Positions 16,134 to 50,087 of a stretch of 64,000 bases of DNA are shown one piece after another. The position numbers and the translations under genes were made by a program. A model generated the notes under the pieces. That model was not told the DNA's origin. It saw nothing but the letters and a program-made list of their open reading frames with translations, and did not search any database. Source of the DNA: Blastococcus mobilis (lineage in GTDB: Bacteria; Actinomycetota; Actinomycetes; Mycobacteriales; Geodermatophilaceae); assembly GCF_900188025.1 (NCBI RefSeq), contig NZ_FZNO01000024.1, positions 1 to 64,000 of the forward strand, in the 5' to 3' direction. Within the stretch, counting starts at the first letter, position 1. Each line of letters opens with the position of its first letter.

Positions 16134-16516
16134 GTGCGCTCCCCTCGTCCGCCGCCGTGGCTCCCGGTGCGGGCGGGGAGTGACCATGCGGGCGACCACC
16201 GACGCTCGTCCGCGCCGCCGCAGCCCTCGCGCGGACCGCCCGGCCCCCGGGATGGCGTCGGACTATAGCCACTCCCGGCCCCCGGAAGCGGCTCGCGCGT
16301 CGCCGTCGCAGTGACCGCCGGCACACGGAGGCGGCCGGAGCTGGGCGCCCGCGCCCCGTGGAGCTGCCGGAACAGCGGACGATCACCGGGACGCGAGGGG
16401 TTAACGGGACCCGTTCTCGCAGGTACCTTGTGGCTGCCTCCGGCCACCAGGACAGGGGCAGCAGTCTGCCGGAAGCTTTGTTCAGGCACGGGCTCGTCAT
16501 CTCGAGCGGGGGCACA
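16134..16516. other. divergent promoter region between OmpA-like and Wzz operons
   Basis: No gene is supported here. The stretch holds the rightward promoter at 16401-16429 with its internal palindrome and a possible leftward -10 (TATAGT) at 16262-16267 for the OmpA-like operon, about 130 bases before its start. Confidence 0.6.
16401..16429 (+). promoter_or_regulatory. promoter of the Wzz/flippase operon with overlapping palindrome
   Basis: TTAACG at 16401-16406 and TACCTT at 16424-16429 are separated by 17 bases, fitting a housekeeping sigma promoter. The perfect 13-base palindrome AACGGG-A-CCCGTT (16403-16415) overlaps the -35 and the spacer, so a repressor bound there would block polymerase. 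The transcript would start about 80 bases before the TTG at 16517. Confidence 0.6.
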
Positions 16517-17995
16517 TTGACGTTGACGAATGCACTGCACGCGGTGCGCGAGCGGTGGTGGGTCCTGATCGCCGGGCTCCTCATCGGCCTCGCCGCCGCG
16601 GCGGCCGCGTCCTGGACCGCGGTGCCCGTGTACACGTCGACCACCCGGCTGTTCGTGGGTGCGACCGGCGAGGCGGAGAATGCCGACGCCTATGCGGGGG
16701 GCCTGTTCGCCCAGCAGCGCGTGCAGTCCTACGTGCGGGTGCTGGAAGGCGACCGGCTGGGCCGCCGCGTCATCGCCGATGTCGGCCTGCAGGTCACCCC
16801 CGACGAGCTGGCCGCCAAGGTGACGGTGCGGCCGGTCCCGGAGACGGCGATCCTCGAGGTGACGGTCTCCGACGGCTCGCCGGAGCGCGCACGGGCGATC
16901 GCCGATTCGTTCGGCCGGCACGCCATCGAGCAGGTGACCGTCCTGGAGACGACCGCGGGCGCGGTCGATCCAGCAGTTCGGGTGACGACGTTGGACGCGG
17001 CCACGCTCGAGACCGAGCCCGTGAGCCCCGACGTGACGCGCAACGTCGCCCTCGGGATCTCGCTCGGGTTGCTGGCCGGCCTGATGGCCGTCCTGCTGCC
17101 CGCCCGGTTCGGGCGAGGGATCGTGACCCGTGAACAGGTGCGCGAGTGCACCGGGCGGGACGTGCTGGGGGCGCTCGTGGAGGACCACCGCTTCCGGGAC
17201 GTCGGCCCGCTCGCGGGGCTGCGCGCCGACTCCCCCAACCGCGAGGCGCTGCGCGCCGTCCGCGGCCGGCTGCTGCACGCTCACCGGGACACCCCGCCGC
17301 GGGTCCTCGTCGTCACGAGCGCTCTGCGCGGCGAAGGCTCGTCGGTGCTCGCCGCGAACCTGGCCGTCACCGTGGCCCAGGCCGGAGCCAGGACACTGCT
17401 GATCGACGCCGACGTGCGCAACCCCAGCGTGTCCCGGTACCTGGACCTGCCCGAGGACACCGGGCTGACCGATGTGCTCAGCGGGCGGGCCTCCCTCGAG
17501 GACGCCGTCCGGCCGTGGGGTGAGGACTCGCTCCTCGTCCTGACCGCGGGATCGGTCCCACTGGACCCGAGCGCCCTGCACGACTCGCTGTCGCTACGCG
17601 CCCTCGTCGACACCCTGAAGGACAGCTACGACGTCGTGATCATCGACGCGCCGGCGCTCGCTCCGGTGGCCGATGCCGCGGTCATGGCCGCGTGGGCCGA
17701 CGGCTGCATCCTGGTCACGCGTTACGGCGGAACGCCGCGCGAGCATCTCTCGGGTGCGGCCGCCGTGCTGGCGCGGGAGCGGGCGGAGCTGCTCGGCGTC
17801 GTCCTCAACCGGGTGCCCCCGAGGTCCGCGCGTGCCCGGGGATACCGCCACCCCTATCCGGCCGACCCGGACCGCCGGGCGCGGCGTGACCTGATCGACC
17901 GGCGCCTCCACATCGGCGCCCCCGGGCGCGGAGCGCCTCGGACGGCGAACTCCGCCGTGGCGGTCAGCCCCACGGCGCGGCCGGAACGGCCGTGA
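16517..17995 (+). CDS. Wzz/BY-kinase-like polysaccharide chain-length protein, degenerate Walker A
   Basis: Protein of 492 residues joining a Wzz-type membrane domain (helices near 14-34 and 175-195, with a periplasmic-side loop) to a cytoplasmic CpsD/BY-kinase-like domain. Walker A' (LLIDADVRNPS) and Walker B (VVIIDAPAL) are present, but the Walker A motif reads RGEGSSVLAANLA, so the invariant lysine at residue 275 is serine. A short tyrosine-poor tail (GYRHPYP) follows. The protein probably controls polymer length and export, but kinase activity is doubtful. The TTG at 16517 follows a GGGGG site and gives the N-terminus expected for the family. It overlaps the flippase start (GTGA). Confidence 0.85.
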   Translation: MTLTNALHAVRERWWVLIAGLLIGLAAAAAASWTAVPVYTSTTRLFVGATGEAENADAYAGGLFAQQRVQSYVRVLEGDRLGRRVIADVGLQVTPDELAAKVTVRPVPETAILEVTVSDGSPERARAIADSFGRHAIEQVTVLETTAGAVDPAVRVTTLDAATLETEPVSPDVTRNVALGISLGLLAGLMAVLLPARFGRGIVTREQVRECTGRDVLGALVEDHRFRDVGPLAGLRADSPNREALRAVRGRLLHAHRDTPPRVLVVTSALRGEGSSVLAANLAVTVAQAGARTLLIDADVRNPSVSRYLDLPEDTGLTDVLSGRASLEDAVRPWGEDSLLVLTAGSVPLDPSALHDSLSLRALVDTLKDSYDVVIIDAPALAPVADAAVMAAWADGCILVTRYGGTPREHLSGAAAVLARERAELLGVVLNRVPPRSARARGYRHPYPADPDRRARRDLIDRRLHIGAPGRGAPRTANSAVAVSPTARPERP

Positions 17996-22841: not shown

Positions 22842-23915
22842 TCAGGGGGCGCGCCAGGGTGGGAAGAACCCGTCCGTGTCATCGGTCCCCGCCAGCTCCC
22901 GGTACCGCAGGCGGTCGTGGACGATCTTGGCGATGTGGAACGGCAGCGGCTCGCTCTGTGGGTCGTAGCGGTGCTTGAAGACGTACAGCGAGGACTCCGC
23001 CGAGCCGCCGACCCCGCCGCCGAGGTGGAAGAGCGTCATGCCGCGGGCCTGCGCCCACTCGGCCGCAGCGAGGAAGCAGCGGTTGGAGGCACCGATCGAG
23101 CGGGCCGCCTCGTCCGAGGCGCCCAGGTGGTAGTGCAGCCGGGAACCTTCGGCGAAGCACAGCAGTGAGGCGACGAGCCGGCCCTCGAGCCGGCCCTCGA
23201 CGAGGACGGGTTGCAGGGTCCCGCCGTCGGCCAGCAGGGCCTCCCAGTACTCGGTCGGGAAGTAGAAGAAGGGGTGTGCCTGCTGGCGGCGCATGGTGGC
23301 GACGTAGAGCTCGCGGAAGTCGGCCAGCGAGTCCGGTCGGGGCACGACGGCGACCTCGAGGCCGGCTCGCTCGGCTCGGCGCGCCGCCCGTCGGTGGTGC
23401 GGATGCATGCCGGCCGTCAGGTCTCGCCCGGGCGACACGTCCCACGCCACGGTGGAACCGACGAGGACGGTCTCGGCCCTGGCCGGGAGCAACCGGTGGT
23501 TGTCGAGCAGGGGGTGGCATCGCAGGAACGTCGCCACGACCCCGTTGGCTCGGGCCCACGTGTCGAGGGCGCGTCCGAACGCGGGACGAGCGCCGCCCGT
23601 CCTCGCCGTCGGCCCGCCGTACCCGTAGGCGCTGGTGGCGTCCCAGCCCGTCCCGTCCGGCAGCAGCCGCAGCAGCAGCGGCAGCGCCATCTCGCCGGTC
23701 CGGTGCCGGAAGTGCAGCAGCACCGGCTCGGTCCCGGGCACCTCCAGCAGCGCCGAGGCACGGTGGTACGCCGCCCGGGTGTAGGTGTCCAGTCCGCCGA
23801 GGCGGGCGATCAGCGCGTCCCACTCGTCCAGGGGGACGACCTCGACGTCGCCCACCGAGGCGACGGATGCGGGCTCGGGCGCGCTCGACGGCGGCTGCAA
23901 CTCCGGGCTGGCCAC
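22842..23915 (-). CDS. FemAB-related GNAT-fold acyl/aminoacyl transferase
   Basis: Protein of 357 residues with the double-GNAT layout of FemAB/BioF2-like enzymes (acetyltransferase, GNAT 6 type). The first half carries TSAYGYGGPTAR near 93 and a HPHHRRAARRAERAGLEV block near 173; the second has LYVATMRRQQAHPFFYFP near 205, AEGSRLHYHLGASDEAARS near 256 and MTLFHLGGGVGGSAESSLYVFK near 296. Such enzymes transfer amino acids or acyl groups onto peptidoglycan or sugar amines. It is convergent with the polymerase operon. The GTG start at 23915 lacks a clear ribosome site; in-frame starts slightly downstream remain possible. Confidence 0.78.
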   Translation of the reverse strand: MASPELQPPSSAPEPASVASVGDVEVVPLDEWDALIARLGGLDTYTRAAYHRASALLEVPGTEPVLLHFRHRTGEMALPLLLRLLPDGTGWDATSAYGYGGPTARTGGARPAFGRALDTWARANGVVATFLRCHPLLDNHRLLPARAETVLVGSTVAWDVSPGRDLTAGMHPHHRRAARRAERAGLEVAVVPRPDSLADFRELYVATMRRQQAHPFFYFPTEYWEALLADGGTLQPVLVEGRLEGRLVASLLCFAEGSRLHYHLGASDEAARSIGASNRCFLAAAEWAQARGMTLFHLGGGVGGSAESSLYVFKHRYDPQSEPLPFHIAKIVHDRLRYRELAGTDDTDGFFPPWRAP

Positions 23916-24444: not shown

Positions 24445-25896
24445 GTGCAGGGCAACGTCACGCTCAGGTCCTTACGGGACCACAGCTACTTCATCGTCCT
24501 CGGCGTGCTCCTCGGGCTGGGCGCGGCCGGCCTGCTGACCTGGACGACCGAGCGGACCTACACCTCGTCGACACAGCTCTTCGTGGGCGCGGTCGGTGCC
24601 ACGGACACGGCCGACGCCTACGAGGGCAACCTCTTCTCGCAGGAACGGGTCGCGTCCTACGCCCAGATACTCACCTCACCGGACCTCGCCGAGCGGGTCG
24701 TCGACGAGCTCGGGCTCGATCTGACCGCCGGGGAGCTGGCGGCGAAGGTGACCGCCGCACCCGTGCCGGAGACCGTGGTCCTCGAGGTCAAGGTCACCGA
24801 CACGTCGGCCGAGCGCGCACAGGCCATCGCGACGTCCCTGGGACGCCAGTTCGCCAGCCGGGTGACCGAGCTGGAGACCCCCGCGGGCGCGTCCTCGTCG
24901 ACCGTCGCCGTCAGCACGATCCAGACACCCGACTTCAACCCCGAACCGGCGAGCCCCGACGTTCCCGGCACCCTCGGTCGTGGAGCTGCCATCGGCCTGG
25001 TCCTGGGCACGGGGGTCGCCCTGCTGCGGACCCGGACCGACCGGGCCGTCCGGAGGGACGACGACGTGGAGGAGGCGGCCGGCGCCCACGTGGTCGGGCG
25101 GGTCCTCGAGCAGCATCGATGGGCCCGGACCCGCCTGCCCGCCGATGTGTTCGGCCAGTCCCCGGCCGCGGAGGCCTACCGGGCTCTGCGGGTGAATCTC
25201 CGCCACCTCGACGGGCGGCGTCGGCCGCAGGCCGTCGTCGTGACCGGCCCGTTGCCCGGCGCCGGCGCCTCCACCGTCGCGGTCAACCTGTCGGCCTCGC
25301 TGGCCGCGTCCGGTCAGCGGGTACTCCTCATCGACGGCGACCTGCGCCGCCCGCGGGTCACCCACTGCCTGGGTCTCCCGGACGGTCCAGGCCTGACCGA
25401 CGTCCTGACCGGGTCGGCAGAGCTGCACGACGTGGTGCGGCCCTGGCGTGGCGGGCGACTGTCCGTCCTGGGTGCCGGTCCCCTTCCCTCCGACCCCGAG
25501 GCGTTGCTCGGTTCGGCCAGGATGCGCTCGTTGCTGGACGTGCTGCGCGACCAGTACGACCAGGTGATCCTCGATGCGCCACCCCTGCTCTCCGTCGTCG
25601 ACGCCGCCGTGCTGAGCGCCGTCGCCGACAGCTGCCTGCTGGTCGCCCGTTACGGCCGGACCAGGCGCGAGCACCTGGCCGAGGCCGCGGCCATGGTGAC
25701 CCGCGTGCGCGTCCCCTCCCTCGGCGTGGTGCTCAACCGGGTGCCCCGGCGGGCCGCCGTCGGCTCCCCGGGAGCCCGCGGTTACCGGGCCGAGGGCCAT
25801 CGCAGGACGACCGAGACCATGGTCGCCGGATCGTCGGCCGACCCCGATGCGCGCCCCGGCGCGGGCGCTCCCGACCGACTCCCGCCCCACGAGTGA
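24445..25896 (+). CDS. second Wzz/BY-kinase-like chain-length protein, degenerate Walker A
   Basis: Paralogue of the protein at 16.5 kb, 483 residues, same layout: helices near 12-33 and 173-190 around a Wzz loop (TYTSSTQLFVGAVGATDTAD), then a CpsD-like domain with Walker A' (LLIDGDLRRP) and Walker B (VILDAPPLL). The Walker A reads LPGAGASTVAVNL, so the catalytic lysine is alanine at residue 275, the same position changed in the paralogue. A single tail tyrosine (RGYRAEG) remains. It probably regulates length of the module B polymer without being an active kinase. The GTG follows a run of six G. It opens the bacillosamine-type gene group. Confidence 0.85.
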   Translation: MQGNVTLRSLRDHSYFIVLGVLLGLGAAGLLTWTTERTYTSSTQLFVGAVGATDTADAYEGNLFSQERVASYAQILTSPDLAERVVDELGLDLTAGELAAKVTAAPVPETVVLEVKVTDTSAERAQAIATSLGRQFASRVTELETPAGASSSTVAVSTIQTPDFNPEPASPDVPGTLGRGAAIGLVLGTGVALLRTRTDRAVRRDDDVEEAAGAHVVGRVLEQHRWARTRLPADVFGQSPAAEAYRALRVNLRHLDGRRRPQAVVVTGPLPGAGASTVAVNLSASLAASGQRVLLIDGDLRRPRVTHCLGLPDGPGLTDVLTGSAELHDVVRPWRGGRLSVLGAGPLPSDPEALLGSARMRSLLDVLRDQYDQVILDAPPLLSVVDAAVLSAVADSCLLVARYGRTRREHLAEAAAMVTRVRVPSLGVVLNRVPRRAAVGSPGARGYRAEGHRRTTETMVAGSSADPDARPGAGAPDRLPPHE

Positions 25897-25997: not shown

Positions 25998-27839
25998 ATG
26001 GCCGGCAAGGACCGCAACTGGCGCTGGACGATCATCCGCCTCGCGATGCTGGGCGGCGACCTGATCTCCCTCGCAGCCGGGCTGGTCCTCGCCACGACGG
26101 CCAGGTACACGGGCTCGCTGGACCAGATGAACACCAACGGGCTGCTGGTCGGGATGGCGCTGACGACGCTGGTCTTCCCCATCGCCTCGACCGTGCTGCG
26201 GCTCCACCAGGGCCGCTACGCGGTGGGCAGCGCCGAGGAGTTGAAGAGCCTGGGCGCCGCCGTCGGTATCACCGCGCTCGCGGTCCTGACCGTCGTCGCC
26301 CTGGCGGGTTCCCCCCGCCTGCTCCCGTTGAGCGTCCCGGCCATCGCCGCCGTCCTCTCCTTCGTCATCATGATCGGCTTCCGGCTGGCCCTCAGGAGCC
26401 AGCGGGAGGGCGCCGTCCGCCCGCGGACCGGGCAGCGCACCCTCGTGTTCGGGGCCGGCATCGCCGGCGAGCAGCTGGTCCGGTCGATGCTGGCCGATCC
26501 GGCCAGTCCCTATCTGCCGGTGGGCCTCCTGGACGACGACCCGACCAAGCGGCATCTCCGCATCCGCGGGGTCCGCATGATGGGCGGGCGCGAGCGGCTG
26601 GGCGCCGCGGCGGCCGCGACCGGCGCCGAGGTGGTGGTGGTGGCGCTGCCCTCGGCGGGATCGGAGCTGGTCCGCGACATCTCGCAGCGGGCTTCCGAGG
26701 CGGACCTGGTGGTGAAGGTGCTCCCGCGCGTGGCCGACCTGCTCAACCGGCGCGTGGGCATCCGGGACGTCCGCGACATCGATGTCGCCGACCTGCTCGG
26801 CCGGCGGCAGATCGACACGAACGTCACCGAGATCGCGCACTACCTCCGCGGGAAGCGGGTCCTGGTCACCGGCGCCGGCGGCTCCATCGGCTCCGAGCTC
26901 TGCCGCCAGATCCACCGGTTCGGCCCCGGCGAGCTGCTGATGCTCGACCGGGACGAGTCGGCACTGCACGCGCTCGAGCTGTCGATCTTCGGCGAGGCCC
27001 GCCTCGATCTCCCCCAGGCCATCCTCGCCGACATCCGGGACGCCGCGACGCTGGAGAGCCTGTTCGCCGAACGGCGCCCCGACGTGGTGTTCCACGCCGC
27101 CGCCCTCAAGCACGTGAACATGCTCGAGCAGTATCCGGACGAGGGCTGGAAGACCAACGTGCTCGGCACGCGGAACGTCCTGTCCGCGGCGACCGCCGTC
27201 GGCGTCACGCACTTCATCAACGTCTCGACGGACAAGGCCGCGGACCCGGCCAACGTCCTCGGTCACACCAAGCGCATCGCGGAGCAGCTGACCGCGGCCT
27301 ACGCCCAGCGCGGCACCGGCCAGTACCTGTCGGTGCGGTTCGGCAACGTCCTGGGCAGCCGGGGATCGGTCCTCGAGACGTTCGCCGCCCAGATCGCCCG
27401 CGGCGGCCCCGTCACGATCACCCACCCCGAGGTGACCCGGTACTTCATGACGATCCCCGAGGCGGTCCAGCTGGTCATCCAGGCCGGTGCGATCGGGAGG
27501 AACGGGGAGGCGCTGGTCCTGGACATGGGCACTCCGGTACGCATCCGCGACGTGGCCACCCACCTGATCAATCTGGAGGGGCGGCCCATCGACATCGAGA
27601 TCACCGGGCTGCGGCCCGGCGAGAAGCTGCACGAGGACCTGTTCGGCTCCGGCGAGCACGGCAGCCGCCCGATCCATCCCATGATCAGCCACGTGGCCGT
27701 TCCGCCGCTCTCCCCGACGGACCTGGACCGTCTGCCGAGGCGGTACGTCCTCGAGTCGAACACGACCGCGGACCCCCCCGACGGATCCCTGCGGCTGGGG
27801 AACACCGCCGTGGGCGACTCGCGAAGTGTTGCGTCGTGA
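25998..27839 (+). CDS. membrane UDP-GlcNAc 4,6-dehydratase (PglF/CapD/WbpM type)
   Basis: Protein of 613 residues: four N-terminal helices (to about residue 125), a first Rossmann domain (LVFGAGIAGEQLV near 150) and a catalytic SDR domain from about 286 (VLVTGAGGSIGSELCRQIHR) with DVVFHAAALKHVNMLEQYPD near 365, VSTDKAADPANVLGHTKR near 409 and RFGNVLGSRGSV near 447. In this family Lys of GHTKR is catalytic; the usual Met of the S-M-K triad is Leu here. Expected reaction: UDP-GlcNAc to the 4-keto-6-deoxy sugar, the first step to bacillosamine. ATG at 25998 has GGAGG; the end overlaps the aminotransferase start (GTGA). Confidence 0.88.
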   Translation: MAGKDRNWRWTIIRLAMLGGDLISLAAGLVLATTARYTGSLDQMNTNGLLVGMALTTLVFPIASTVLRLHQGRYAVGSAEELKSLGAAVGITALAVLTVVALAGSPRLLPLSVPAIAAVLSFVIMIGFRLALRSQREGAVRPRTGQRTLVFGAGIAGEQLVRSMLADPASPYLPVGLLDDDPTKRHLRIRGVRMMGGRERLGAAAAATGAEVVVVALPSAGSELVRDISQRASEADLVVKVLPRVADLLNRRVGIRDVRDIDVADLLGRRQIDTNVTEIAHYLRGKRVLVTGAGGSIGSELCRQIHRFGPGELLMLDRDESALHALELSIFGEARLDLPQAILADIRDAATLESLFAERRPDVVFHAAALKHVNMLEQYPDEGWKTNVLGTRNVLSAATAVGVTHFINVSTDKAADPANVLGHTKRIAEQLTAAYAQRGTGQYLSVRFGNVLGSRGSVLETFAAQIARGGPVTITHPEVTRYFMTIPEAVQLVIQAGAIGRNGEALVLDMGTPVRIRDVATHLINLEGRPIDIEITGLRPGEKLHEDLFGSGEHGSRPIHPMISHVAVPPLSPTDLDRLPRRYVLESNTTADPPDGSLRLGNTAVGDSRSVAS

Positions 27840-28993
27840 CGGCGGCACCTGCCCAGCGGGGCGCGCGGATCCTGCTGTCGTCCCCCGACGTGGGCGGCCG
27901 CGAGCAGGAACTGGTCGCCGAGGCCATCGCGTCGGGGTGGATCGCCCCGCTGGGGCCGATGGTCGACGCATTCGAGGAGCGGATCGCCGAGCGGTGCGGC
28001 CGTCGTCACGCCGTCGCCCTCTCATCGGGCACGGCCGCCCTCCATCTGGGGCTGCTGGAACTGGGCGTGCGCCCCGGGACGGCGGTGATCGTCCCGACGC
28101 TGACGTTCGCGGCCACCGCGAACGCCGTGACCTACTGCGGCGCCGAGCCGGTGTTCGTCGACTGCGACCCCGACTCCGGCGTCCTCAGCCCGGAGCTCCT
28201 CGAGCACGCGCTGCTGTCCCTGCAGCAGGCGGGCACGGACGTGTCCGCGGTCGTGCCGGTGGACCTGCTGGGTCGCTGTGCCGACTACACCGCGCTGGAC
28301 CCGGTGTGTGACCGCTTCGGCGTCCCGGTCGTCTCCGACGCGGCCGAGTCCCTGGGTGCCGCGCACGCCTCCCGGCCCGCCGGGTCGTTCGGGGCCGTCG
28401 CCGCGCTCTCGTTCAACGGCAACAAGATCATGACCACCAGCGGCGGAGGGATGCTGCTGACCGACGACCCGCGGACCGCCGATCGGGTCCGCTATCTCAG
28501 CACCCAGGCCCGGCAACCGGCCGTGCACTACGAGCACACCGAGATCGGCTTCAACTACCGGATGAGCAACGTGCTCGCCGCACTCGGCCTGGCCCAGCTG
28601 GAGCGGCTGGACGGGATGATCGGCCGGCGCCGTGCGCTGCGCGAGCGGTACGCGGAGGTGTTCACCGGCATCCCGGGTGCCGACATCTTCCAGCGGTCCG
28701 GGGACCGGTCCGACAACTGCTGGCTCACCGCGGTGATCGTGGACCGGGACCGGACGGGTTGGTCGGTCGAGGAGTTGCGGGCGGCACTGGAGGCGGCCGG
28801 CATCGAGTCCCGGCCACTGTGGAAGCCGATGCACCAGCAGCCGGTGTTCGCCGGTGCGCCTACCTACCTCGACGGCTCCGCCGACCGGTTGTTCGACTGC
28901 GGGCTGACCCTGCCGAGCGGTTCGGCGCTCCGGGACGACCAGGTGGACACCGTCATGGGTGCCCTCGGCGCCTTCCTGGGAGAGCGGCGATGA
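27836..28993 (+). CDS. DegT/DnrJ/EryC1 sugar aminotransferase (PglE-like)
   Basis: PLP-dependent aminotransferase of 385 residues. SSGTAALHLGLLELGV near 63 binds cofactor phosphate, FVDCDPDSG near 106 and VSDAAESLGA near 167 precede SFNGNKIMTTSGGGML near 192 with the PLP lysine at 197, followed by GFNYRMSNVLAALGLAQLE near 239. The GLTLPSGS tail is typical of PglE/WbpE. It should aminate the 4-keto sugar made by the preceding dehydratase, giving a 4-amino-6-deoxy sugar. GTGA and ATGA overlaps with both neighbours show tight operon structure. Confidence 0.88.
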   Translation: MTAAPAQRGARILLSSPDVGGREQELVAEAIASGWIAPLGPMVDAFEERIAERCGRRHAVALSSGTAALHLGLLELGVRPGTAVIVPTLTFAATANAVTYCGAEPVFVDCDPDSGVLSPELLEHALLSLQQAGTDVSAVVPVDLLGRCADYTALDPVCDRFGVPVVSDAAESLGAAHASRPAGSFGAVAALSFNGNKIMTTSGGGMLLTDDPRTADRVRYLSTQARQPAVHYEHTEIGFNYRMSNVLAALGLAQLERLDGMIGRRRALRERYAEVFTGIPGADIFQRSGDRSDNCWLTAVIVDRDRTGWSVEELRAALEAAGIESRPLWKPMHQQPVFAGAPTYLDGSADRLFDCGLTLPSGSALRDDQVDTVMGALGAFLGERR

Positions 28994-29622
28994 GCCGGTC
29001 GCGCCGCGCGCTCTACCTCCCGGCGAAACGGGCCCTCGACGTGCTCGTCGCCGGCGTGGGGCTCCTGGTCTCGGCACCGGTCATGGCCGTCCTCGCGGTC
29101 GCCGTGCGGCGCGACGTGGGTTCCCCCGTGCTCTTCCGGCAGCTGCGTCCCGGCCGGCACGGTGAGCCGTTCGAGCTGGTCAAGTTCCGCACGATGCGGA
29201 CACTGGGCAGCTCGGACAGCGTCGCCAACGATGCGGAGCGGCTGACGCCGTTCGGCCGCTGGCTGCGGAGCACCAGCCTGGACGAGCTGCCGACCCTGTG
29301 GAACGTGCTGCGCGGGGACATGAGCCTCGTCGGGCCGCGGCCGCTGCTCATGGAGTATCTCGACCGGTACACCCCGGTGCAGGCGCGCCGGCACGACGTC
29401 CGGCCCGGAGTGACGGGACTGGCCCAGGTCCGCGGGCGGAACCTGCTGAGCTGGGAGGAGAAGTTCGCCGCCGACGTCGAGTACGTCGACCGGATGGGCC
29501 CGGTCCTGGACGCGCGGATCCTGGCGGCGACGCTGGCCACGGTGCTGCGCCGCCAGGGCATCTCCGCGCCCGATGCCGCGACGATGCACCTGTTCACCGG
29601 CGAGCGTCGGGACGCCGCCTGA
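28990..29622 (+). CDS. PglC-like monotopic phosphoglycosyl transferase
   Basis: Protein of 210 residues, the length of PglC. One N-terminal reentrant helix (about 13-38) precedes LFRQLRPGRHGEPFELVKFRTM, TSLDELPTLWNVLRGDMSLV near 95 with the intact catalytic Asp-Glu pair, GPRPLLMEYL and RPGVTGLAQVRGRN near 138. It should transfer the diacetyl-bacillosamine-type sugar phosphate to undecaprenyl phosphate, starting the repeat unit of module B. Compared with the protein at 9.7 kb all motifs are present. ATG overlaps the aminotransferase stop. Confidence 0.9.
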   Translation: MSRSRRALYLPAKRALDVLVAGVGLLVSAPVMAVLAVAVRRDVGSPVLFRQLRPGRHGEPFELVKFRTMRTLGSSDSVANDAERLTPFGRWLRSTSLDELPTLWNVLRGDMSLVGPRPLLMEYLDRYTPVQARRHDVRPGVTGLAQVRGRNLLSWEEKFAADVEYVDRMGPVLDARILAATLATVLRRQGISAPDAATMHLFTGERRDAA

Positions 29623-29661
29623 GGGGCACGACCCCGAGCACCACGCCGGCAGGGCCCTGGA

Positions 29662-29691
29662 CGGCCGCCTCCGATGTCAGGAAGGCGGCCG
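29662..29691. terminator. hairpin between convergent genes
   Basis: CGGCCGCCT (29662-29670) and AGGCGGCCG (29683-29691) form a perfect 9-base-pair stem with a 12-base loop, 40 bases after the transferase stop and 12 bases before the end of the convergent FAD-protein gene. It could act for both strands. No T-run follows. Confidence 0.6.
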
Positions 29692-29702
29692 CGCGTCGAC
29701 CG

Positions 29703-31319
29703 TCACCCGGCGGGCAGCGGCTCGGTGGCGAGGCTCCGCGCCAGCCGGGGGCCTAGGGACGAGCCGAACGCGCTGATCCGGCCGCAGTGCTCCATGTGCC
29801 AGACCGGCGAGCCGTTGATGACGTTGCCGGCCAGGAGCGGCCCCATCACGAAGAAGCCGGGCGCGGCCGACAACGACGCGTCGACGGCGATCCCGCCGCC
29901 GTACGGGGTCGCGCGGCACACGCCGCTGCTGATCAGGTCCGCGACGAGGGAGGGCGCGGTGTCCTGCAGCGTCGGGGCCGGGCCACCACAGTTGATGACG
30001 ACGTCGGCCGGGCGGTCGAGCTCATGAGCCACGCCGTCCCGGTCGAACCGGACGCGGACACCGCGGCCGTCCGCATCCCCGAGGCCGACGAAGCTCCCGG
30101 CCACCGCCGTCAGCCGGCCCTGCGCCACGAGCTCGTCCACGACCTCGCAGTACTCCCACCCGGCCCGCCGCTGATGGCGACCGAGCTCCACGCCCCAGTG
30201 GCCGGCGAACTCGAGGGCCTCCTCGCTGGACAGGCGCGGAAGGACGGCGACGACGCCGTCGGAGATCGGCTTGAGGGTGTCGGCGACGGAGTAACCGGCG
30301 TCCCGGCCGCGGGCGAGGTCGCCGACCGCGGCCTCGTAGACGGCGGCAGCGCGGACCGACTCCTGGTCTGCCAGCGCCTGCAGCAGCTCGGCACGGAATG
30401 CCGAACCCGGACGGGGGCGATCCATCAGCTCCGGGAGTTCCCCGCGGGGCGAGAGCACCGTGAACCGGGCTCGCCGTGCGGCGACCACCGGGATGTCGGC
30501 GACCTGGTACAGCATGTCCATGGTGCTGGCGTTGCCACCGATGAGCAGGATGTGCGGCGGCTCCTGTCCGGCGGCTCGACGGGTCACGAGCCGCTCGATG
30601 CGGTCCAGAGCCGCGTCCATGCCCTCGAAGGGGCTGTCGAGCAGCACCGCGCCGCCCTCGACCTCCCCGGCGGGCAGGCGGGGCCGGACCGGTGAGGAGC
30701 CGGTGGCGAGGACGACGCGTCCTGCCCGCAGCACGCGGTCGCGGCACCGGAGCAGGTAGTCCGGTCGCCCGCCCTCGATCGAGCGGACGTCGTCCTGGAT
30801 CACCTCGGTCGTCGCGAGGCCGGCGTCCGCAGCGGCGGCGATCGCCCGCCTGGTCCGACGGACCAGGTAGTCGCCGAAGATGTACCGGGGCAGGAACAGG
30901 TCGTCGAACGCGTTGCTCTCGACGGCGGCACGGTGCCTGACCCACCAGCGGGCCGAGACCGGCCCCTCCGCGGCGAGGAACTCGCCGAAGGCCCAGCGCT
31001 TGTTCTCGGCGAGCCAGTCGGTGAACAGCCGGAGCTCGCCCGGGGGCAGGAAGTCCCGCAGCGGCGTGATGAGCAACGCCGTGCGGGCCGCGCGTCCCCC
31101 GTAGGCGATCCCGGAGAAGGCATCGGGGGCGCGCTCGACGACGCCGATCCGGAGCGGGGCGGCCGGCGGGGTGTCGGCGAGCGAGGTGAGCAACGAGATC
31201 AGGACGTAGGCCGTCGAGGCCCCGGCGCCGACGAACGCGAGGTCGTAGGTGTCGGACTCCGCCGTGCCGCGGGCGGGGATCCCCCGGGCGCCGAACGGCG
31301 CGAACGCCTGCTGTGTCAT
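29703..31319 (-). CDS. FAD/NAD(P)-binding oxidoreductase, YdhS-like
   Basis: Protein of 538 residues of the FAD-NAD(P)-binding family (PF13454 kind). DLAFVGAGASTAYVLISLL near 26 is the FAD Rossmann motif, VVERAPDAFSGIAYGG near 62 the strand-2 acid followed by the family GxAY turn, VVLATGSSPVRPRLP near 203 the second FAD contact, ILLIGGNASTMDMLYQVADI near 251 an NAD(P)-binding motif, and VINCGGPAPTLQDTAP near 445 a third. The ATG overlaps the stop of the acetyltransferase gene (ATGA), so both are translated together. No member of known bacillosamine pathways needs this activity; oxidation or hydroxylation of the amino sugar is one possibility. Substrate unknown. Confidence 0.75.
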   Translation of the reverse strand: MTQQAFAPFGARGIPARGTAESDTYDLAFVGAGASTAYVLISLLTSLADTPPAAPLRIGVVERAPDAFSGIAYGGRAARTALLITPLRDFLPPGELRLFTDWLAENKRWAFGEFLAAEGPVSARWWVRHRAAVESNAFDDLFLPRYIFGDYLVRRTRRAIAAAADAGLATTEVIQDDVRSIEGGRPDYLLRCRDRVLRAGRVVLATGSSPVRPRLPAGEVEGGAVLLDSPFEGMDAALDRIERLVTRRAAGQEPPHILLIGGNASTMDMLYQVADIPVVAARRARFTVLSPRGELPELMDRPRPGSAFRAELLQALADQESVRAAAVYEAAVGDLARGRDAGYSVADTLKPISDGVVAVLPRLSSEEALEFAGHWGVELGRHQRRAGWEYCEVVDELVAQGRLTAVAGSFVGLGDADGRGVRVRFDRDGVAHELDRPADVVINCGGPAPTLQDTAPSLVADLISSGVCRATPYGGGIAVDASLSAAPGFFVMGPLLAGNVINGSPVWHMEHCGRISAFGSSLGPRLARSLATEPLPAG

Positions 31320-32023
31320 CGGGCCCACAGCCCACTCCGGACCCGGCCGCCGGACCGGATGAACTCCGGATCGGGCGGCACCTCCCCGCTGCGGTCGGGC
31401 AGTATGCGCGCCGGGTTCCCCACGGCCGTCACGTGGTCGGGCAGATCGCGGATCACCACGGTCCCGGCGCCGACCTTGCACCACCGGCCCACGCGCACCT
31501 TCGGGATGACCACGGCGCCCACGCCGATGTGCGTGCCCTCACCGATGCTGACGTGTCCGCTCAGCGCCGCCTGCGGGCTGATGTGCGCGTAGTCCCCCAC
31601 CACGCAGTCGTGGTCGACGCTGGCCCCGGTGTTGATCAGGACGTGCCGCCCGATCGACGCGTTCGGCTGGATCATGGCGCCGGTCAGCACCACCGTCCCC
31701 TCGCCGATCCGCGCGGACGGCGCGATGAGGGCCGAGGGATGGACGGCGGTTCCGAACTGCGCGTCGAGCACCTGCGCGAGCTCGGCGCGCTCACCGTTGA
31801 TCCCGACCGCCAGGACGAGGGGGACGTCGAGCTCGGGGAACTGGTCGGGCCCCACGATGCGGATGCCCGGCAGCACGTTCTGGCTGGCCGGGTGCTGGTT
31901 CTCCGGCACGTCGTTGTACATGCGCCGGATCCGGATGCCGCGGGCCCTGAGCACATCGATGACGACCTGAGCGTGGCCACCCGCGCCGTACACGTCGAAC
32001 GTCGACCGGTCGCGGAAGGTCAC
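31316..32023 (-). CDS. PglD/NeuD-family sugar O/N-acetyltransferase
   Basis: Protein of 235 residues with a Rossmann-like nucleotide-sugar domain (DVYGAGGHAQVVIDVLRARG near 9-28) and a C-terminal left-handed beta-helix of hexapeptide repeats (HPSALIAPSARIGEGTVV, NASIGRHVLINTGASVDHDC) with the catalytic His in SVDHDCVVGDYAHISP. These are PglD features, so it should acetylate the 4-amino-6-deoxy sugar to give the diacetyl form. The GTG at 32023 follows GAGGAGG. It precedes the FAD-protein gene and is on the strand opposite to pglF/E/C-like genes. Confidence 0.88.
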   Translation of the reverse strand: MTFRDRSTFDVYGAGGHAQVVIDVLRARGIRIRRMYNDVPENQHPASQNVLPGIRIVGPDQFPELDVPLVLAVGINGERAELAQVLDAQFGTAVHPSALIAPSARIGEGTVVLTGAMIQPNASIGRHVLINTGASVDHDCVVGDYAHISPQAALSGHVSIGEGTHIGVGAVVIPKVRVGRWCKVGAGTVVIRDLPDHVTAVGNPARILPDRSGEVPPDPEFIRSGGRVRSGLWAR

Positions 32024-32191: not shown

Positions 32192-32761
32192 CTACGGTAT
32201 CGGGCCGCGGGCCGTCCCGAGGCGCCGCTCGGAGCCGGCCGGGCGCGGGTCGAGCACGAGGGAGGCCCCCAGGCCCAGCGCCGCGCCGAGCAACCAGCCG
32301 GCGAGCACGTCGCTGAGCCAGTGCGCCCCCAGGTACACCATGCTGGCGCCGACGAGCACCGTTCCGGCGACCAGCAGGGCGACGACGACGTACGCCGTGC
32401 GGCGTCCGGAACGGAGCCCCCACAGGATCAACGGCGTCGCCGCGCCCGCCGTCAGCGCCCCGATGGACGACGGCATGGCGAACCCGTCGGTCGGTACCAG
32501 CGCCAGCTCGGCCGGTGGCCGGGGCCGGCCGATGAACTCCTTGGCGTACTCCGCGATCACGGTCGCGACGACGGAGGCGAGCATCGCGGCGGCGACGGAG
32601 CGCCAGGCGCGGAAGACCCAGGCGAACACGAGGGCGAGGACCGCCGCGGCGACGTAGGTCGAGGTCGGCTGCCCCGCGTCCATCAGCCCCTGGGCCACAG
32701 CGTCGGCCCATTCGGTGCGGTGCCCCGCCAGCGCCTCGAGCAGCGCCACGTCCCATCCCAT
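32192..32761 (-). CDS. PAP2-superfamily membrane protein with altered catalytic motifs
   Basis: Protein of 189 residues with five to six helices. Motif C1 (KEFIGRPRP near 72) is intact, but C2 reads MPSSIGAL near 95 in place of PSGH, losing the histidine proton donor, and C3 reads SMVYLGAHWLSDVLAG, losing the arginine but keeping the nucleophilic His and Asp. It may be inactive or act by a changed mechanism; a role in undecaprenyl or prenyl phosphate handling would fit the context. The start is uncertain: ATG at 32761 gives the usual N-terminus, an in-frame ATG at 32809 adds 16 residues, and neither has a good ribosome site. Confidence 0.7.
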   Translation of the reverse strand: MGWDVALLEALAGHRTEWADAVAQGLMDAGQPTSTYVAAAVLALVFAWVFRAWRSVAAAMLASVVATVIAEYAKEFIGRPRPPAELALVPTDGFAMPSSIGALTAGAATPLILWGLRSGRRTAYVVVALLVAGTVLVGASMVYLGAHWLSDVLAGWLLGAALGLGASLVLDPRPAGSERRLGTARGPIP

Positions 32762-33221
32762 GCGCGCCAGTATCGGAGGTCGAGGTGGAGCGACCAACCG
32801 CCTCGACATGGCGAGCGATCAGCGCGCCGGGCCGATCCTCGACGCCGAGGCGTCGGTCACAGGGACCGCGCGATGCCCCCCTTCCGAGGGAAAACATGGG
32901 CCGATATGAGCGAAGCGTCACGACCTGCCACGAAAGTGTCAATCCGTCAGGTGGACGAGCACCCATACGTCCAGCTAGAAAGGTCCCTGTCATTCGGCGG
33001 ACCGAGTATCTCGTGACGGTGAGTGACGGGGACGGGTGCTCACGGACGACGCCGTCACCGCGGGGGACCGCTCGTTCGACCGAGTGCGCACCACAGGCCC
33101 CCTCGTAGCGTCAGCATCAGCTCCACGGGGTTAGCGATGACCCGCCGGGCGCCATCTGGTCGCCATAGCCCGGCGGTGAGCAGAGGCGAAACCGGACCCG
33201 TCTCGTACGAGAGGATCCGGC
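32762..33221. other. intergenic region between PAP2-like gene and GT2 gene
   Basis: About 460 bases with no supported gene. A perfect palindrome TCTCGTACGAGA at 33201-33212 overlaps the ribosome site (GAGAGGA) of the GT2 gene and may be a translational or transcriptional control site. Confidence 0.4.
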
Positions 33222-36964: not shown

Positions 36965-38797
36965 TCAGCCCCGGCACTGGTAGAGGACGGTCTCCCCGTC
37001 CTCGAAGACGCGGGTGAAGGACGGGTCCTCGGCGATCGCCCGTTCGTAGGCCCGGTACACGTACAGCCGCACCGTCCCGAACAACCGCACGTTGTCCTCG
37101 GCGGACGGGCCCAGCGCTAGGTAGACCGGTCCGCTGCCGGCGCGGGTGTCGCAGGCGTCGTGGGTGAACTGCCGGAGGACGGCCTCGTCGGTGGCGGCCG
37201 CGGAAAACCCGGGGAGGTCGGTGAGCCCTTCCACGCCCTCGGTGGCCGGCGGCAGGTGGTCCGCGTAGTGCTGGGTGGCCCGCAGCGGATAGGAGGAGGC
37301 GAACGGCAGCAGCACCGAGCCGTCCGGTGTCTCCTCCTCGAACCAGACGTCGGCGGTGACGTCGGAGGCCGCCACGCGGTAGCTCATCTCTCCGGCGAAG
37401 TTGGCGGGCAGGGTCAGGGTGGCGACGGCGACGACGGCCAGACCGGCCAGCAGCCGGCGCTCGGGGGTCCAGGCCGGCACCTCGTCGAAGAGCTGCAGCG
37501 CGATGACGAAGGCCATCCACGGCAGGGCGAACAGGTAGGCGCGGAAGATGCCCTCGTTCCCGTACGGCTGGCCGAGGATCAGGACCAGCGGCACGGCAGC
37601 CATGCCGAGGGGGACGACCATCCGGCTGGCGCGGCCGCGCCAGCCGGCGGCGGCCAGCACGCTCCACCCGGTGAGCAGGGCCACGACCGCCATCAGCAAG
37701 GGGGCTGCCCACAGCGCGACCGTGTAGCCCGGCAGCGGGTCGGCGACGGCCACCTGCGGCGGTGAGACGTTGTGGAAGCCGAAGTCGAACAGGTCGTAGG
37801 TGCTGTTCAGGAACGGCCAGGCCTGGAGCAGCCAGGCCTCCTCGATGGCGAGGAACACCACCGGGAGCCACGGCCGCACCGGCCGCAGCAGGATGCAGAC
37901 CAGCGTCGACTGCGCGAGCAGGAGCAGCGGAGAGAGCGGGTGGGACACCGCGACGTAGACGAACCCCAGGACGAGCAGGACCGTGGCCGACCGCGTGCGC
38001 CAGAACCGGCTCGGCCGGGGCAGGTCGGCCTCGGCCGCCCTCGGGAAGCGGGCGGCGAGCCGGGCGAAGCGCAGACCCTCCGCGCCGGGCGGGACGGAGC
38101 GCAGCAGCCCGCCGAGCACGAGCAGGGCCACTGGGAAGGCCAGCGCCTGGGGCGCGAAGTAGTTCTGCCCGATCCAGTCGCCGAGCGTGTACAGCAGGAC
38201 GCCGCCGTAGCGGACGCGCCGGGAGGTGCTGAGCCCGCCGATCAGCCAGTAGACGGCAGCCGCGGCGATCAGGGCGAGAGTGGGCTGGGCCCACTGGGCC
38301 AGGTCCTGCACGGGGATGCCGGTCAGCCGGTGCAGGCCGGCCACGAGGACGAAGAACCCCGGGAAGTTGTGGTAGATGTCGATCGACCGGTCGACTCCCC
38401 CGTTCGCCAGGAGGTACTCGACCACCCCGATGTGCTTGTACGTCCACGGGTACCGGGGGACGTCGTACACGAGGGCCGTGGTGGCGAAGAGGATCGCGAC
38501 GAGGAGCACCTGCGGCGCCACGAGCAGGTGCGAGACCGGTCGCCGCGAGATCAGCGCCCACAGGTAGACCAGGACCGTCAGCGCGAAGGCGGCGTACCAG
38601 CTCACCGGCAGGGCGGAGAGCAGGCCCCAGCCGCCGGTGTCGTCGAGTCGGACGTCGCCGAGCGACCACAACCACAGCGCGAGCGCCCCGAGGGTGCCCA
38701 CCGGCAGCACCCAGGTGCTCCACTCCTGCCAGGGGTGGGCGCGGTACCGCGGAGCCATGGCCGACGGCTCTCGTGCAGTGAGGGTCCCGGTCGTCAT
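36965..38797 (-). CDS. large polytopic membrane protein, GT-C-like
   Basis: Protein of 610 residues with about 12-13 hydrophobic segments in the first 480 residues and a soluble C-terminal part of about 120 residues. It is not clearly assigned. An early loop after the first helices (YDVPRYPWTYKHIGVVEYLL near 118) and the YHNFPGFFVLVAGLHRL segment near 143 are similar in style to GT-C glycosyltransferases or polymer-length/ligase proteins using lipid-phosphate donors. Between a GT2 and a GH16 gene, a role in adding side-chain sugars or polymerising outside is likely. ATG overlaps the GT2 stop (ATGA). Confidence 0.65.
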   Translation of the reverse strand: MTTGTLTAREPSAMAPRYRAHPWQEWSTWVLPVGTLGALALWLWSLGDVRLDDTGGWGLLSALPVSWYAAFALTVLVYLWALISRRPVSHLLVAPQVLLVAILFATTALVYDVPRYPWTYKHIGVVEYLLANGGVDRSIDIYHNFPGFFVLVAGLHRLTGIPVQDLAQWAQPTLALIAAAAVYWLIGGLSTSRRVRYGGVLLYTLGDWIGQNYFAPQALAFPVALLVLGGLLRSVPPGAEGLRFARLAARFPRAAEADLPRPSRFWRTRSATVLLVLGFVYVAVSHPLSPLLLLAQSTLVCILLRPVRPWLPVVFLAIEEAWLLQAWPFLNSTYDLFDFGFHNVSPPQVAVADPLPGYTVALWAAPLLMAVVALLTGWSVLAAAGWRGRASRMVVPLGMAAVPLVLILGQPYGNEGIFRAYLFALPWMAFVIALQLFDEVPAWTPERRLLAGLAVVAVATLTLPANFAGEMSYRVAASDVTADVWFEEETPDGSVLLPFASSYPLRATQHYADHLPPATEGVEGLTDLPGFSAAATDEAVLRQFTHDACDTRAGSGPVYLALGPSAEDNVRLFGTVRLYVYRAYERAIAEDPSFTRVFEDGETVLYQCRG

Positions 38798-47760: not shown

Positions 47761-48966
47761 GTGAGACACGCCATGCACGCTCCATCCAACCCCTCCAACC
47801 CCGAAACCACAGTCCCTGCGTGGAACAGCACGGCGCGCAGGCAACAGGACGCGGCTGCGTCCCGTGATCGCATCGCCGTCATCGGCTACGGCTACTGGGG
47901 CTCGAAGCACGTCCGCGTCCTGAGCAGCACCCCCGGCGTCGACGTCACCATCGTCGACGGCCAGTCGGCGCGCCTCGTGGAGGCGGCAGCCCACTACCCC
48001 TCGGCGAGGCTGGCGTCCCATCTTGGTGACGTCCTCGACGACATCGACGCGGTGGTGGTCGCTACGCCACCCGGCAGCCACGCGCCCATCGCACACCGGG
48101 CGCTCGAGGCCGGCAAGCACGTGCTGGTGGAGAAGCCGCTGGCCACGTCCGTGCAGGACGCGGAGCGTCTGGTGAAGGCCGCCGCCCAGCACGGACGGCA
48201 CCTCATGGTCGGCCACACCTTCGAGTACAACGCCGCGGTGTGGAAGCTCCGGGAGCTCGTACGGTCCGGGGCACTGGGGCGGATCCTCTACGTCGACACG
48301 TCGCGGTTGAGTCTCGGCCGGTACCAGAGCGACGTGAACGTGATCTGGGATCTCGCCCCGCACGACATCTCGATCGTCTCGTACATCCTCGACGAGATGC
48401 CGGCCTGCGCCACCGTGTGGGCGCACAGCCACATCAGCAGGCAGCATGCCGACGTCGCGTACCTCCGCCTGGACTTCCCTCGGTCACAGACCCGGGCCTA
48501 CGTCCACGTCAGCTGGCTGACGCCCAACAAGGTCCGGCAGGTCACCGTCGTCGGTGAGCAGAAGATGGCCGTCTACGACGACCTGTCGGACAACGAACGG
48601 ATCCGCGTCTACGACATCGGTGTCGACGTCCAGGAGATCGACGATCCGGCGGAAGCCCATGCGTTGCCCGTGTCCTACCGCACCGGCGACATCGTCTCCC
48701 CGTACATCCCGTTCCAGGAGCCGCTCCTGGTTCAGGATCAGCACTTCATCGACTGCATCCGGACGGGGGCTCGGCCCGACACTTCCGGCGAGCGTGGCCT
48801 CGAAGTGGTCCGGGTGCTTGCTGCGACGGACGAGATGACCCAGGTCGCGGGCGAGGACGTGCGTGCCGGAGCGGGCGCGTCCACGGACCAGCCCAGCACC
48901 GGATCGGCCCCGGAGGGACCGTCACGAGACGGCCACCGCCCCCGTTCGACACGGATCGCGTCGTGA
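47761..48966 (+). CDS. Gfo/Idh/MocA-family sugar oxidoreductase (WlbA/WbpB-like)
   Basis: NAD(P)-dependent oxidoreductase of 401 residues. The N-terminal Rossmann core has AVIGYGYWGSKHVRVLSST near 39, DAVVVATPPGSHAPIAHRAL near 93 and HVLVEKPLATS near 120 with the EKP catalytic lysine; the C-terminal alpha/beta domain has GHTFEYNAAVWKLRELV near 150 and WDLAPHDISIVSYIL near 197 with the family His. It probably oxidises C3 of a UDP-HexNAc(A), feeding the aminotransferase that follows (GTGA overlap). The first 35 residues are polar; ATG at 47773 is an alternative start. The C-terminal 40 residues are low-complexity. Confidence 0.82.
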   Translation: MRHAMHAPSNPSNPETTVPAWNSTARRQQDAAASRDRIAVIGYGYWGSKHVRVLSSTPGVDVTIVDGQSARLVEAAAHYPSARLASHLGDVLDDIDAVVVATPPGSHAPIAHRALEAGKHVLVEKPLATSVQDAERLVKAAAQHGRHLMVGHTFEYNAAVWKLRELVRSGALGRILYVDTSRLSLGRYQSDVNVIWDLAPHDISIVSYILDEMPACATVWAHSHISRQHADVAYLRLDFPRSQTRAYVHVSWLTPNKVRQVTVVGEQKMAVYDDLSDNERIRVYDIGVDVQEIDDPAEAHALPVSYRTGDIVSPYIPFQEPLLVQDQHFIDCIRTGARPDTSGERGLEVVRVLAATDEMTQVAGEDVRAGAGASTDQPSTGSAPEGPSRDGHRPRSTRIAS

Positions 48967-50087
48967 CCGACGCGTCGATCCCGTTCCTCGACGTCCAGGG
49001 GATCACCCAACTCGTGCGCGAGGACCTGGACCTGCGCTGGAAGGGCGTGCTCACTCACGGCCGCTTCATCGGCGGTCCGGAGGTCGAGACGTTCGAGGCG
49101 CGGTTCGCGGAGTACTGCGAGAGCAGGCACTGCGTGGGGGTCGCCAACGGTACGGACGCGCTCGAGCTGGTCCTCGCCGCGCTGGGCATCGGACCGGGCG
49201 ACGAGGTCATCGTGCCCGCCAACACGTTCGTCGCGACTGTGGAAGCCGTGTGCGCCGTGGGCGCACGACCTCGGTTCGTCGACGTGGAACCGGACACGCT
49301 GGAGATCGATACCGACGCGGCCGCAGCTGCCGTAGGCCCCCGGACGGCGGCGGTCATGGCGGTGCACATGTTCGGCCAGATGGCCGACGTCGACCGTCTG
49401 GTCCCACTCGCGCAGCGGCATGGGCTGGCGATCGTCGAGGACGCCGCCCAGGCGCACGGGGCGCGATTCGGAGGCCGGAGAGCCGGCAGCGTCGGTGTCG
49501 CTGCGGGCTTCAGCTTCTACCCAGGGAAGAATCTCGGAGCGCTGGGTGACGCCGGTGCCGTGGTCTCCAGCGACGAGGCGCTCGTGGCGCGCATCCGGCA
49601 GCTGGCGAACCACGGCCGGGCAAGCAGCGGCCGGCACCTGCACGAGCTCCGCGGCCGGAACAGCCGGCTGGACACCCTGCAGGCCGCGGTCCTGGCCGTC
49701 AAGCTGCGCAGCCTCGACGCGGACAACGACCGCAGGCGGTGGGCGATGCGGCGCTATCGGGAGCGCCTACCGGCCGGGTGCCTCCCCCTGGCCGAGCATC
49801 CGCGGGCCGAACCGGTGCACCACCTGGCCGTCGTACAGGTGGCGGACCGCGCCGCAGCCACCGCGGCCTTGGACGCTGCGGGCATCGGCTGGGGTCTGCA
49901 CTACCCGGTGCCCTGCCACCGTCAGCCCGCCTTCGTCGAGTTCGCCGACGAGCCTCTCCCGACCACCGAGCTGGCCGCGCAGCGCATCCTCTCCCTGCCG
50001 ATGTCCCCGACCCTGACCGTGGCCCAGATCGGCCGTGTGTGCCAGGTCCTCGACCAGGCGACGGGGCCCGACCGCCGGCCTCCCTGA
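48963..50087 (+). CDS. DegT/DnrJ/EryC1 sugar aminotransferase (WlbC/WbpE-like)
   Basis: PLP enzyme of 374 residues: FIGGPEVETFEARFAEYCES near 35, GVANGTDALELVLAALGIGP near 60, FVDVEPDTLEID near 105, EDAAQAHGARFGGR near 159, SFYPGKNLGALGDAGAVV near 184 with the PLP lysine at 189, and GRNSRLDTLQAAVLAVKL near 231. The SFYPGKNLG form is typical of enzymes making 3-amino sugars. With the preceding oxidoreductase it should make a 3-amino (or 2,3-diamino) nucleotide sugar; the matching acetyltransferase is not adjacent. It is convergent with the metallophosphoesterase gene. Confidence 0.86.
   Translation: MTDASIPFLDVQGITQLVREDLDLRWKGVLTHGRFIGGPEVETFEARFAEYCESRHCVGVANGTDALELVLAALGIGPGDEVIVPANTFVATVEAVCAVGARPRFVDVEPDTLEIDTDAAAAAVGPRTAAVMAVHMFGQMADVDRLVPLAQRHGLAIVEDAAQAHGARFGGRRAGSVGVAAGFSFYPGKNLGALGDAGAVVSSDEALVARIRQLANHGRASSGRHLHELRGRNSRLDTLQAAVLAVKLRSLDADNDRRRWAMRRYRERLPAGCLPLAEHPRAEPVHHLAVVQVADRAAATAALDAAGIGWGLHYPVPCHRQPAFVEFADEPLPTTELAAQRILSLPMSPTLTVAQIGRVCQVLDQATGPDRRPP

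Follow-up and report, generated by a model that had tools for sequence, protein, structure and literature searches.

The closest described counterpart of the locus reported here is the Campylobacter pgl pathway, in which PglF, PglE, PglD and PglC belong to the route to UDP-di-N-acetylbacillosamine. The nearest chemical precedent for flavin chemistry on an amine attached to a nucleotide is found in the FR-900098 pathway, in which an acetyltransferase takes part. The flavin enzyme of that pathway, FrbG, is described in section 7 of PMC7347517 as N-hydroxylating an amine carried on CMP, toward a hydroxamate. Here we analyse a 64,000-nucleotide stretch of the 5.1 Mb genome of Blastococcus mobilis (G000; contig NZ_FZNO01000024.1, positions 1 to 64,000; hereafter the window), in which genes of the four pgl families lie together with a gene for a YdhS-like FAD/NAD(P)-binding-fold protein (hereafter the flavoprotein), whose reading frame overlaps that of the PglD-like acyltransferase (hereafter the paired PglD). 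We put at about even the chance that the paired PglD and the flavoprotein constitute a two-enzyme module in place of an ordinary PglD, within a pglFEC cassette that makes the sugar with which a surface polysaccharide begins. This reading draws on the co-occurrence and adjacency of the two genes, the ordinary PglD carried by a sister form of the cassette, the predicted fold of the flavoprotein and the intact catalytic His of the paired PglD. Searches of the literature by title or abstract returned no description of such a flavoprotein-PglD pair, and no described function was found there for YdhS-like flavoproteins.

A bacillosamine-type cassette with an additional flavin-fold protein

All five reading frames are open over the coordinates given in Table 1, and domain matches at these positions bear out the original prediction that PglF-, PglE-, PglC- and PglD-like proteins are all encoded. 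The combination of a 4,6-dehydratase, an aminotransferase, a hexapeptide acyltransferase and a phosphoglycosyl transferase at one locus supports, on sequence grounds, its assignment as a bacillosamine-type cassette, here accompanied by a further protein of flavin-type fold. The pglF, pglE and pglC genes are located on the forward strand and are joined by 4-base overlaps, while the paired PglD and flavoprotein genes lie on the reverse strand, convergent to pglFEC, and the five genes therefore do not form one operon. The locus thus shares its four enzyme families with the Campylobacter pathway but differs in this convergent arrangement and in its PglD, which represents a separate subtype with its own loop and tail and is always located beside the flavoprotein gene.

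Table 1. Features of the cassette and of the accessory genes in the window
Feature	Coordinates	Strand	Evidence
PglF-like membrane UDP-HexNAc 4,6-dehydratase	25998..27839	+	PF02719 340 bits; neighbour of the pair also in relatives
PglE/LegC-like pyridoxal phosphate (PLP) aminotransferase	27836..28993	+	PF01041 322 bits; TIGR04181 370 bits (cut-off 420, not reached)
PglC-like phosphoglycosyl transferase	28990..29622	+	PF02397 199 bits
YdhS-like FAD/NAD(P)-binding-fold protein (flavoprotein), 538 amino acids	29703..31319	-	PF13454 58 bits (cut-off 21.8); hhalign profile match to YdhS-like proteins (E 6.5e-27; 448 columns); predicted models
Paired PglD, NeuD/PglD-type hexapeptide acyltransferase, 235 amino acids, GTG start	31316..32023	-	TIGR03570 (NeuD/PglB/VioB) 212 bits, above cut-off; catalytic His in 7/7
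ATGA overlap, paired PglD stop / flavoprotein start	31316..31319	-	sequence
PAP2 phosphatase, accessory gene tracking the pair	32192..32809	-	PF01569 54 bits
FemAB/GNAT-like transferase, accessory gene tracking the pair	22842..23915	-	PF13480 62 bits; PF02388 30 bits

Co-occurrence and adjacency within the Geodermatophilaceae

Of 112 family genomes searched, seven encode the flavoprotein, including Modestobacter excelsi and three Blastococcus strains, and the copies from outside the window share 58-66% identity with that of the window. The PglD query matched hexapeptide proteins in 107/112 genomes at an E value of 0.001, but at 70% identity or above it is restricted to the identical set of seven, the next match sharing 40% identity, and in none of the 112 genomes does the paired PglD occur without the flavoprotein. 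Fisher's value for the resulting table (7, 0, 0, 105) is 2.8e-11, which ignores kinship and gauges only the completeness of the match. The two genes adjoin and overlap in 7/7 genomes and pgl genes are found within 5 kb in 7/7. The neighbourhood is conserved in relatives, and the original prediction, which a lack of such conservation would have refuted, withstood its own test.

The pair converges on pglC or pglE, at a distance of at most about 100 bases, in the window and in loci L015, L017, L018 and L019. It is located about 4.4 kb from pglF in L016 and about 1.5 kb from pglF in L020, where an epimerase-like gene intervenes; in both the partners still adjoin and overlap. The contig of genome G109 (L017, L138) stops inside pglF. 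In this genome pglC does not lie between the flavoprotein gene and pglE, but is found near the end of the other contig (L138), beside a FemAB-like gene.

Ordinary and pair forms of the cassette

A PglE of at least 70% identity is encoded in 15/112 genomes, seven with the flavoprotein and eight without, the latter sharing 70-73% identity with the PglE of the window. When the eight flavoprotein-free loci were inspected as 16-20 kb stretches around PglE, PglF was found near PglE in 7/8 and PglC in 6/8, and the flavoprotein was present in none of these stretches. A PglD-like gene of 33-44% identity is encoded in six of the eight, directly after pglC in four and 2-5 kb away in two, which argues for an ordinary form and a pair form of the cassette. 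The pair of paired PglD and flavoprotein therefore looks like a two-gene module that replaces the ordinary PglD retained by the sister form.

The best solved relatives of the paired PglD are the perosamine N-acetyltransferase 4ea7 (E 9.8e-38), the pilin glycosylation protein 4m98, VioB (7txp) and PglD (3bss; E 3.3e-19). All seven genomes retain its catalytic His, the residue substituted in the variant entries 4eaa and 4eab. An NDxPxNQHPAS loop and, in the tail, an RxGExPPD motif are common to the seven proteins and were not observed in the seven other PglD-like proteins aligned, three of which are incomplete; C-terminal tails of different sequence are also present on two of the seven ordinary PglD-like proteins compared. 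A profile of the paired PglD, run over 229 genomes of the order, scored 474 and 469 bits in two pair-carrying genomes; no other genome exceeded 144 bits. The constant pairing of an acyltransferase with a flavin-type protein suggests an extra chemical change to the amino sugar.

Family and predicted fold of the flavoprotein

Neither an NCBIfam model nor a PDB sequence matched the flavoprotein, and its profile recovered two structure matches at chance level (E 0.04 and 0.85). PF13454 is the sole family matched by sequence. The profile match with YdhS-like proteins is full-length (Table 1), upholding the YdhS-like label of the original prediction, while weaker matches were obtained with Lys/Orn N-hydroxylases (E 2.2e-6, 394 columns) and FzmM-like proteins (E 2.4e-5, 174 columns). 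By these comparisons, it is a divergent YdhS-like protein.

Two models were predicted, with mean predicted local distance difference test (pLDDT) scores of 78 and 80; the second drew on additional YdhS-like sequences, which may have biased it in their direction. Foldseek placed SidA on top for the first model and the aspartate N-hydroxylase FzmM for the second (8cp5; E 2.8e-16; template modeling score 0.60 by query length). Alignment with FzmM (8cp2) by VIA-align gave a Z of 18.9 over 449 residues for the first model and of 20.8, with a root-mean-square deviation of 4.3, over 453 residues for the second, while thioredoxin and bacillithiol disulfide reductases reached Z values of 20.0 and 22.3 at best, spanning only about 300 residues. 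The longest structural matches of the predicted models are N-hydroxylases, whose class B members combine an FAD domain, an NADP domain and a helical substrate domain; thioredoxin reductases tie with them in Z over about 300 residues, and an N-hydroxylase-type fold is a prediction from the models. FzmM/CreE-type enzymes and SidA/PvdA would share with the flavoprotein a predicted fold in which a helical region joins a pair of nucleotide domains, but their profile similarity to it is weak. That the protein binds FAD, what it acts on and the kind of reaction that it would catalyze are points that we infer.

A narrower form of the two-enzyme module can be derived from the predicted fold, in which the flavoprotein would be an NADPH- and O2-dependent N-hydroxylase of a UDP-linked 4-amino sugar or of its amide, and acylation by the paired PglD would yield a sugar hydroxamate, in the manner of siderophore N-hydroxylase and acyltransferase pairs. 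The FzmM and SidA matches of the models are consistent with such a role, as is FrbG, a precedent on a nucleotide-linked amine (PMC7347517). The comparison with FrbG is one of chemistry; its substrate is CMP-aminopropylphosphonate, unlike the UDP-4-amino sugar proposed here. Since thioredoxin-reductase-like chains reach equal or higher Z values over about 300 residues, and the active site differs as set out below, we consider N-hydroxylation in this form unlikely.

Evidence weighed against the two-enzyme module

Several lines of evidence weigh against the two-enzyme module, the first of which lies in the active site of the flavoprotein. In class B monooxygenases an Asn (or Asp/Glu) is positioned over the flavin C4a, as described in PMC10404684. 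This flavin-contacting residue is the Asn of an LLN motif in 30/30 comparators, which include 26 PF13454 frames minus one (14 residues, wrong start), but is replaced by Leu or Ile, depending on the alignment mode, with a Thr nearby, in 7/7 flavoproteins. The last Gly of the FAD loop, GxGxxG, is a Thr in 7/7 (Gly in 29/30 comparators, Thr in one). In the NADPH loop, GxG, Asn takes the place of the second Gly (GxN) in 7/7 (Gly in 28/30 comparators). Dinucleotide loops are able to tolerate change. With both loops altered and the Asn absent, even a redox role is unproven; the remainder of the protein is well conserved, with a mean column identity of 69% across the seven. It combines the framework of an N-hydroxylase-like protein and an altered active site, and may or may not act as a monooxygenase. 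The N- or C-oxidation postulated in the original prediction is compatible with the predicted fold but is weakened by the absence of the class B monooxygenase Asn.

Aspartate N-hydroxylation as in FzmM was rejected, as the FzmM substrate residues Arg13, Arg276, Asn413, Arg416 and Arg577 are kept at the corresponding alignment positions in none of the seven, the last four of these being unsure assignments in a helical domain that aligns poorly. The profile alignment gave no support to a likeness between the segment LLITPLRD and the active-site motif of SidA.

These substitutions could be accommodated if the flavoprotein were no monooxygenase but a dehydrogenase or oxidase, or if it had no redox activity and served to bind or stabilise the paired PglD. 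A protein that lacks the Asn and has a changed NADPH loop, yet is strongly conserved elsewhere and constantly adjoins the paired PglD, would suit such a role; with the frame of the FAD domain kept and the full-length predicted fold nearest to N-hydroxylases, we regard it as improbable.

The second line of evidence concerns the overlap and the genes that accompany the pair. An ATGA overlap between the PglD-like and flavoprotein genes was correctly predicted, and an overlap is found in all seven genomes (4 bases in six, one base, TGATG, in the seventh). Other 4-base overlaps are located within the window at 27836-27839, 28990-28993, 17992-17995, 38794-38797 and 48963-48966, the reading-frame starts behind this list being mechanical except for those of pglE and pglC, which were chosen. 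Such overlaps are frequent in the window, so the overlap by itself is a weak sign of a shared substrate, and the claim that translational coupling implies one was too strong. The FemAB/GNAT-like gene is present in 9/112 genomes of the family at E 1e-30 and the PAP2 gene in 8/112 at E 1e-20, each including all seven with the flavoprotein, which weakens the case for a link exclusive to the paired PglD. With short overlaps common and these two genes following the flavoprotein nearly as closely as the paired PglD does, a substrate common to the flavoprotein and the paired PglD is likely but unproven.

The tracking of these two genes (seven of nine and seven of eight genomes, respectively) indicates that the flavoprotein may serve a different step of the same polysaccharide locus, on another sugar, the lipid carrier or an amino-acid decoration, and adjoin the paired PglD through inheritance of the locus. 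Against this, both genes occur in G010, and the FemAB-like gene in G052, without the flavoprotein or the paired PglD, while the paired PglD itself is never found alone, and the pair holds together where its surroundings differ. We consider a role in another step unlikely.

The third line of evidence comes from the flavoprotein-free loci and the PglE tree. The PglD-like match of L072, L075 and L076 covers the hexapeptide part only, and 2/8 flavoprotein-free loci lack a PglD-like gene within the stretch read. Cassettes with the flavoprotein do not form a single supported clade in the tree; L016 and L020 join the ordinary form (98/97), and a long branch makes the root unsafe. One switch to the pair form, plus loss or transfer, may be enough, and the seven pair cassettes need not be independent cases.

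Lastly, relatives of the flavoprotein outside the family were not found beside PglD genes. The possibility that PF13454 proteins generally lie beside PglD was rejected, with no such case in 35 loci (30 of PF13454, of which only about 1.5 kb on each side was covered, and five of weaker relatives). The flavoprotein was matched in its own genome and, weakly and locally, in seven others of the class sample (394 genomes), in its own genome and G603 of the phylum sample (396 genomes), and in G000 and G093 of the order sample (239 genomes), which further yielded a full-length relative in G944 (L150; 28% identity) and a weak relative in G976. These searches scored only three (class), three (phylum) and six (order) candidates per genome and are less sensitive than that of the family. 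The closest full-length relative outside the family (L150:655-2271) has the C-terminal MGPLLAG in common with the flavoprotein and keeps GxGxxG; it and the other nearest extra-family proteins, G603/L109 and G409/L110 (23-24% identity), retain the Asn. No cassette gene was found beside the L150, L109 and L110 relatives. In the 19.9-kb stretch of L150, located at a contig end with one side unseen, 27 window genes besides the flavoprotein were unmatched. By eye, the genes around L109 look like those for flavin reductases and luciferase-like monooxygenases. No orthologues of the flavoprotein were found on plasmids, and 27 pattern matches in viral contigs included no true relative.

Neighbouring polysaccharide genes

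The PAP2 gene is located upstream of the paired PglD gene, and its product shows weak likeness to the undecaprenyl-diphosphatase SepP (42 bits; cut-off 250). A possible role of the FemAB/GNAT-like transferase is the attachment of an amino acid to the polysaccharide. On the forward strand of the window at 47761-50087, a Gfo/Idh oxidoreductase gene (UDP-GlcNAc 3-dehydrogenase-like; 184 bits, cut-off 450) overlaps a second DegT-type aminotransferase gene, a possible route to a 3-amino sugar, and this pair is also present in L019 with 76-78% identity. Two Wzz/tyrosine-autokinase-type proteins are encoded on the forward strand in the one polysaccharide locus, at 16358-17995 and 24445-25896.

Proposed pathway

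Judged by their families, PglF and PglE would convert UDP-GlcNAc into a UDP-4-amino-4,6-dideoxy sugar, the paired PglD would acylate the 4-amino group and PglC would transfer the sugar phosphate onto undecaprenyl phosphate. In the two-enzyme module the flavoprotein would carry out a redox step on that amino group, on the acyl group attached to it or on the donor of the acyl group, giving a primer sugar of the surface polysaccharide unlike plain di-N-acetylbacillosamine. Oxidation of the 4-amino sugar, for example to a hydroxamate, is possible. A more specific proposal, which we consider unlikely, is that the flavin enzyme and its matched acyltransferase N-oxidise the 4-amino group (to a hydroxamate, or an oxime or nitro group), so that the polysaccharide begins with an N-oxidised, possibly metal-binding sugar. 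The readings considered here overlap, and their likelihoods do not sum to a whole. Taken as a whole, the interpretation offered in the original prediction is partly supported.

If the flavoprotein acts on the sugar, a redox step would be added to a well-studied amino-sugar pathway, and the known decorations of bacterial surface polysaccharides would be extended by a new kind. A member of the YdhS-like flavoproteins would furthermore gain a candidate partner and substrate, testable with purified enzymes.

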